Shown here: piece after piece, positions 16,802 through 16,947 of the stretch | How positions within the stretch are numbered: the stretch's first letter is position 1 | How the letters are laid out: each line of letters begins with the position of its first letter | Virus record (IMG/VR): IMGVR_UViG_3300035698_007246 | Span: 126,001 to 190,000 of that record | Source of the DNA: a virus | DNA: 64,000 bases | Direction: 5' to 3' (one strand) | Position numbers and translations under genes: made by a program | The notes under the pieces: model-generated | What the model was told of the DNA's origin: nothing | Databases searched by the model: none | Seen by the model: the letters and a program-made list of their open reading frames with translations, nothing else

Positions 16802-16947
16802 AAAAAGAAGTAAACAAATTGATATTACCATTTGGTAGAAAATGTAAGATTTGAACTTACACATATTGCTTTTGAGGCAATTGCTCAACCATTGAGCTTA
16901 TTTTCCGATAGGAAATTTGCTGTAATCAATCTTCATTACTTCTTTTT
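16802..16947 (-). ncRNA. RNA element enclosing an intact tRNA (unit C)
   Basis: A 12-bp perfect outer stem (AAAAAGAAGTAA) and the motif GAAGATTGATTACAGCAAA on one side, ATCAATTTGT on the other, enclose a complete tRNA in normal order. The trailer AATGGT can pair with ACCA of the tRNA end, and the leader ATTTCC with its 5' GGAAA. It shows that the element is not simply a by-product of permutation. Confidence 0.65.
16833..16906 (-). tRNA. tRNA with CAA anticodon, class I
   Basis: Acceptor GGAAAAT/ATTTTCT, ATTGC-CTCAAAA-GCAAT, T loop TTCAAAT, CCA encoded. CAA means Leu, but the variable loop is only four bases instead of a long arm, so charging identity is unclear. Confidence 0.75.

Follow-up and report, generated by a model that had tools for sequence, protein, structure and literature searches.

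Positions 16802–16947 of the window, the whole 64,000-nt stretch of viral DNA that was analysed, hold a tRNA-like sequence in ordinary order between the arms of a repeated stem-and-motif element, and the locus raises the question of whether the element serves to release a tRNA or is part of an RNA with another use. The window was taken from a record of 223,879 bp that encodes a T4-type DNA polymerase, ribonucleotide reductase, and helicases.

Anatomy of unit C and recurrence of its core

The predicted anatomy of the locus (unit C), specifically an outer stem and both motif halves around an ordinary-order tRNA with CCA, was confirmed in every part on the minus strand by folding, ARAGORN, and Rfam. 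The unit folds at −39.9 kcal/mol, compared with a shuffle mean of −20.7 (z = −5.7, with 0 of 200 shuffles as stable), into a 12-bp outer stem and an 8-bp core stem that are separated by an internal loop (UGA/GU). The features are as follows:

16936–16947 (−), 5′ arm of the outer stem, 12 bp with 16802–16813 (fold)
16802–16813 (−), 3′ arm of the outer stem (fold and pair statistics across units)
16931–16933 (−), AAG, 5′ start of the class-I-like core; its G is paired with the first U of UUGU
16925–16932 (−), 5′ strand of the core stem, AGAUUGAU (fold and pattern scans)
16816–16823 (−), 3′ strand of the core stem, AUCAAUUU (fold and pattern scans)
16917–16925 (−), conserved motif NUNCAGCAA, in unit C UUACAGCAA, immediately inside the core stem
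16814–16817 (−), UUGU, counterpart of the 3′ end CUGU of Class I RNAs (pattern scans)
16902–16915 (−), leader hairpin UUUCC[UAUC]GGAAA, which takes up the tRNA 5′ end (P 0.92–1.00; conserved in L182 and L313)
16826–16837 (−), trailer hairpin UACC[AAAU]GGUA, which takes up ACC of the tRNA 3′ end (P 0.94–0.95)
16833–16906 (−), tRNA-like insert in ordinary order with encoded ACCA (ARAGORN; Rfam RF00005, 68.1 bits)

The leader and trailer pairings with the tRNA ends, which had been proposed from the letters, are thus predicted at high probability. The insert has the anticodon loop CUCAAAA (anticodon CAA) and a short variable loop; with CAA but no long variable arm it does not qualify as a normal tRNA-Leu. 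A normal one with this anticodon was called by ARAGORN at 6572–6655 of the window.

The 20-nt 5′ motif matched six times in the window at up to three mismatches, where 0.02 matches were expected, and a search of the full record with the 5′ pattern only gave nine matches, with the 3′ partner present in all eight of those within the tRNA array. Pattern scans and whole-record searches yielded 46 core units in seven phage records and none in reversed sequences, and extension brought the total to 78 units in 21 viral records (IMG/VR records may be fragments), nine of them in the window. The core stem and several motif letters were built into the scans as conditions, as AAG partly was in later ones, so that the figures of 100% for stem and motif letters hold by construction; AAG was first seen as a repeat of the window, before any comparison with Class I RNAs. 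The core-stem partner covaries between units (AGATTGT/ACAATCT, AGTTTGA/TCAAATT, AGGATGN/NCATCCT), and the fourth base of the 3′ end, [C/U]UG[U/A], is U in 67% and A in 31% of the 78 units, about half of which are 36–66 nt long. The scan did not impose the outer stem, and in 38 units from this phage and its relatives its first six pairs were formed in 89–100%, with varied pair types, compared with 0.44–0.58 for shuffled partners; in 15 units of other phages pairing was merely at chance level. The outer stem is therefore real but optional, and the core, present where it is absent, is the element. Two further pairings were tried and rejected: a strand switch formed by a hairpin of GATTG and CAATC inside the 5′ motif suits only some units, and an ACAG–CUGU pairing fails across units.

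Further units of the window, all on the minus strand, are the following:

15125–15250 (−), U1, same core and outer stem; permuted tRNA body without a complete anticodon loop
15282–15596 (−), U2, same core; 310-nt unit whose insert begins with a tRNA 3′ half
18277–18436 (−), U8, same core (AAATTG/CAATTT); orthologue at L182:11899
19234–19394 (−), U4, permuted tRNA-Ile(GAU)-like insert; orthologue at L183:10200
19652–19770 (−), U5, permuted tRNA-Gly(UCC)-like insert
19891–19957 (−), U7, 62-nt unit adjoining tRNA-Glu; hairpin insert
20109–20300 (−), unnumbered, 187 nt with a non-tRNA insert
20448–20518 (−), U6, 66 nt, anticodon-arm-like hairpin (loop AUUGAAA), adjoining tRNA-Ala

The inserts of U8 and its L182 orthologue contain GCTTAAATAA, which is reminiscent of the end of a tmRNA tag, and beside U4 a tmRNA acceptor-region match (19452–19517 (−)) scored 40.1 bits with beta_tmRNA and 27.2 bits with permuted tmRNA, both sub-threshold. 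The window also holds tRNA pieces or atypical tRNAs uncalled by ARAGORN, some without a visible 5′ half (16650–16712, 17459–17640, 10579–10658, and 21207–21290 (−)), and a CTA-anticodon tRNA at 7485–7560 (−) that ARAGORN called tRNA-Pyl, possibly a phage amber suppressor.

Carriers beyond the window include the cultured Vibrio phages 1.081.O, KVP40, and nt-1, with units inside their tRNA clusters. In KVP40 an unannotated unit (176,721–176,666 (−)) immediately precedes tRNA-Asn, and its nt-1 orthologue has a core stem altered on both sides (GCAATC to GTAATC, and the partner). Aeromonas phage Aeh1 has a weaker candidate, and no stem-supported units were found in T4, Aeromonas phages 65 and CC2, RaK2, or phage G. 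Bacterial copies were considered and set aside: among 32 pattern matches in genome contigs, the cyanobacterial and most other ones look coding or are without the full stem. Large class-I-framed RNAs of 147–269 nt with non-tRNA inserts were seen in the window (20109–20300 (−)), L184:2901 (−), KVP40 (173,124 (−)), nt-1 (89,843 (−)), and 1.081.O (196,217 (−)), those of the three Vibrio phages having internal blocks in common. Variant units at L313:430, 2518, and 4064, with the whole AAG paired (AAG..CTT) and the 3′ end CTTG, form a possible subfamily.

Inserts and the orthologues of unit C

The inserts are of several kinds. In U4 and L183:10200 (Ile), U5 (Gly), and L185:7933 (Asp) they are permuted tRNAs that retain an anticodon arm. 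Others are tRNA bodies in which the anticodon arm or loop is missing, tRNA fragments, anticodon arms on their own, or RNAs of no tRNA character. The last three kinds further support the claim that the element is separate from permutation itself. Hairpins with a stem of 5 bp or more and a loop of 7 nt occur in 26 of 45 short inserts (shuffle mean 3.2, maximum 8 in 300), U33 is found in 19 of these (shuffle mean 0.7, maximum 4), and two of the 26 are T arms. Loops of the Lys UUU type recur among the inserts; tRNA-Lys(UUU) is a target of PrrC and of AriB of PARIS (PMC12409363), which offers a lead and no more. Inserts of L194, L199, and L274 are without tRNA character, which excludes mimicry as the function of the base as such. 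Trans-splicing of lone anticodon arms into bodies without them was considered, and evidence for it was not found. Adjoining the tRNA array of record G004, L185:247–501 (−) gave a full-length match to bacterial RNase P RNA class A at 75.6 bits, below the gathering score of 100.

Orthologues of unit C were found in L182 (83.8% identity over the tRNA) and L313. All three share the leader hairpin TTCC[TATC]GGAA (predicted probability 0.77–1.00) and the trailer pairing of ACC with GGT (0.85–0.99), and in all three the acceptor-stem probability is at most 0.0005 (about 0.0001 within unit C). The window's ordinary tRNAs with 20-nt flanks served as a control and mostly keep the acceptor stem, but about a quarter are near zero too, so that acceptor probability alone is weak and conservation is the stronger point. 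The forced-acceptor fold came to 5–6.5 kcal/mol, a lower bound in the two of three sequences where the constraint was not honoured. The anticodon stem is changed on both sides between orthologues (ATTGC/GCAAT to TATGC/GCATA), as is the T stem (GTAAG/CTTAC to ATTGG/CCAAT), whereas the anticodon passes from CAA to ACA to a 6-nt loop, leaving no conserved usable anticodon, and the L182 orthologue, with ACCT, is without CCA. The description of a complete tRNA with CCA is therefore true of the sequence of unit C, but CCA is not conserved and the acceptor stem is predicted to be unformed within the unit.

The lack of conservation of anticodon and CCA argues against release of a decoding tRNA. By comparison of these sequences, the arms of unit C appear to matter and decoding does not, and its tRNA is unlikely to decode, given that no two of the three orthologues agree in the anticodon and that the anticodon loop of one has 6 nt. 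Acceptor pairing is possible in all three, with G-C and G-U swapped at two pairs, a pattern that would fit a switch between masked and cloverleaf forms that gives a free tRNA, and the acceptor stem does form, by prediction, in the freed inserts of unit C and L313. The original prediction that the tRNA is masked until processing thus held for the masking, which is predicted and conserved in three phages, while decoding is unlikely and "until processing" is only possible.

Likeness to Class I RNAs and other known systems

Class I RNAs (RF01414) begin with AAG, end with CUGU, have a 6-bp stem that is conserved in structure, measure 42–65 nt, and contain an 11-nt motif in which U3, C6, C9, A10, and A11 are fixed; they have been reported from dictyostelids only, where they are free, stable, linear small RNAs with AAG and CUGU ends intact (Kjellin et al., 2021; PMC7919456). 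The phage core has in common with them the AAG start, the CUGU end, and a 6-bp closing stem with structure conserved over sequence, and resembles them in a U..CAGCAA motif inside the 5′ strand, and phage units and Class I RNAs alike carry a variable insert and are present in many copies per genome. The phage motif has the same letters as the 11-nt motif, with one nucleotide less between U and C. The units differ in their phage genomes, tRNA-derived inserts, and, in some phages, outer stem, and unit C is about 120 nt, beyond the Class I range that about half of the phage units fit.

Matches to RF01414 ran end to end from the G of AAG in L182 (38.2 and 33.1 bits), nt-1 (33.4 bits), and KVP40 (27.4 bits); none of these four reached the gathering score of 41.5 bits, and unit C itself was not reported. 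A search of seven phage records with RRM_1 for an Rnp1A-type RRM partner found none. With scores under the threshold and no such partner, the units are called class-I-like and are not filed as members. The likeness may reflect common descent or convergence, which are indistinguishable from these data, and literature searches of open-access papers turned up no mention of Class I RNAs in phages.

Other systems resemble the units in part. GOLLD RNA (RF02032) is likewise a phage noncoding RNA of tRNA clusters that may contain a tRNA, but it is hundreds of nucleotides long and its structure is unrelated; a GOLLD RNA of 186 bits with a tRNA match inside was found at L241:4573–5029 (−), on a contig that also has a class-I-like unit. 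The Y RNA YrlA (RF02553) is a permuted tRNA mimic mounted on a stem at the place of the anticodon arm; its stem motif is different, Ro60/Rsr was not found in this record, and unit C itself is unpermuted. RNAs C and D of phage T4 are annotated as small stable RNAs in a tRNA cluster, and RNA C ends in a T arm; both were rejected as family members, as the class-I-like core was not found in them. Permuted tRNA genes of algae and archaea place the 3′ half before the 5′ half, as do several other units, whereas unit C has the ordinary order and many inserts are without an anticodon arm or loop.

Possible roles of unit C

The reading that we favour, tentatively and at just under even confidence, is that unit C is a small structured noncoding RNA of a class-I-like phage family, a stable tRNA mimic or decoy and not a precursor from which a decoding tRNA is made. 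In this family, a base conserved between units (5′ AAG, core stem of 6–8 bp, NUNCAGCAA, and 3′ [C/U]UG[U/A]) would close an insert, often of tRNA origin, and in this phage and its closest relatives the variable outer stem lengthens the base. The leader and trailer hairpins would pull the acceptor stem of unit C apart, so that the RNA would display D, anticodon, and T arms on the base. We infer that the RNA accumulates as a discrete species, with the base as a docking site bound by a protein, and that the mimic may occupy tRNA-targeting nucleases or other host tRNA-binding proteins, a decoy for tRNA-targeting enzymes being the most likely use of the insert. Several observations count against this reading: searches for a protein partner found no TROVE domain in this record and no RRM_1 in seven, some inserts have nothing of a tRNA, and acceptor pairing is possible in all three orthologues of unit C.

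The units could instead be cis-acting spacers, i.e., processing or stability hairpins in long tRNA or mRNA transcripts, with inserts that are tRNA-gene debris caught between the arms. Units do lie between tRNA genes or just upstream of ribosome-binding sites (L186, L187, L199, and L240), the tRNA region abounds in degenerate tRNA pieces, and inserts change quickly at comparable places (U7 and L182:9902). We nevertheless consider spacers unlikely, as the conserved unpaired letters (AAG, NUNCAGCAA, and UGU) exceed the needs of a processing hairpin, anticodon-loop inserts retain 7-nt loops and U33, unlike debris, the arms of unit C show compensatory changes, and dictyostelids have a free small RNA of this layout (PMC7919456).

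Excision and ligation, in which the base is cut, the insert is released, and RtcB joins the ends into circular or re-ordered tRNAs that are trimmed by RNase P and tRNase Z, is distinctly improbable. RtcB is encoded in both tested records over 200 kb (this phage and G004), joining the halves of the permuted Ile, Gly, and Asp inserts at chosen points gives sequences that are read as whole tRNAs, the Ile exon ends are identical in two phages, and an ordinary tRNA-Ile was looked for in the 223.9-kb record and not found; the joined halves and the missing tRNA-Ile also count against the favoured reading. Against excision, most inserts would yield no working tRNA, many being without an anticodon arm or loop, lone arms, or non-tRNA; the distance between core and insert junction varies, so that one fixed cut site would not do; U4 is without C56 and G18G19 of the tRNA elbow; RtcB was not found in the element-bearing G005 (132 kb, possibly incomplete); and unit C needs no re-ordering. 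The suggestion that the element releases or circularises whatever lies between its arms is thus unsupported, with many inserts that would be non-functional if freed and an outer stem that is dispensable in other phages (15 units); ligation by RtcB is possible on the gene content of the two large records, but likewise unsupported.

A small self-cleaving ribozyme, for which theta ribozymes beside phage tRNAs are a precedent (PMC10879173), would account for conserved unpaired core letters adjoining tRNAs, but is very unlikely, as no Rfam ribozyme family matched in the window and the Class I RNAs of dictyostelids, which share the layout, are stable and linear with intact ends (PMC7919456). Scarcely credible is a YrlA-like particle, in which a Ro60/Rsr protein would bind a stem-mounted tRNA mimic: YrlA matches of permuted units score 19–37 bits, below the threshold, but these rest on the tRNA-like part, with the stem pairs marked as broken in the full-length match, the best match in these loci is at most 43.4 bits against a gathering score of 69 bits, and no TROVE domain was found in this record.

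Beyond the favoured reading of unit C as a tRNA mimic on a class-I-like base lies a bolder one, to which we give little credence: Class I RNAs may be a widespread phage platform on which T4-like phages present parts of tRNAs, isolated anticodon stem-loops among them, as decoys against host defences that cut tRNA, and which amoebae took over or reinvented. Class I RNAs have been published as exclusive to dictyostelids and tied to dictyostelid multicellularity, and a phage match would overturn that range. Extending to KVP40 and nt-1, such a match would also give a simple laboratory system for the function of these RNAs, and should the tRNA-derived inserts prove to be decoys, phages would have, beside the tRNAs that they encode, a counter-defence of a new kind.
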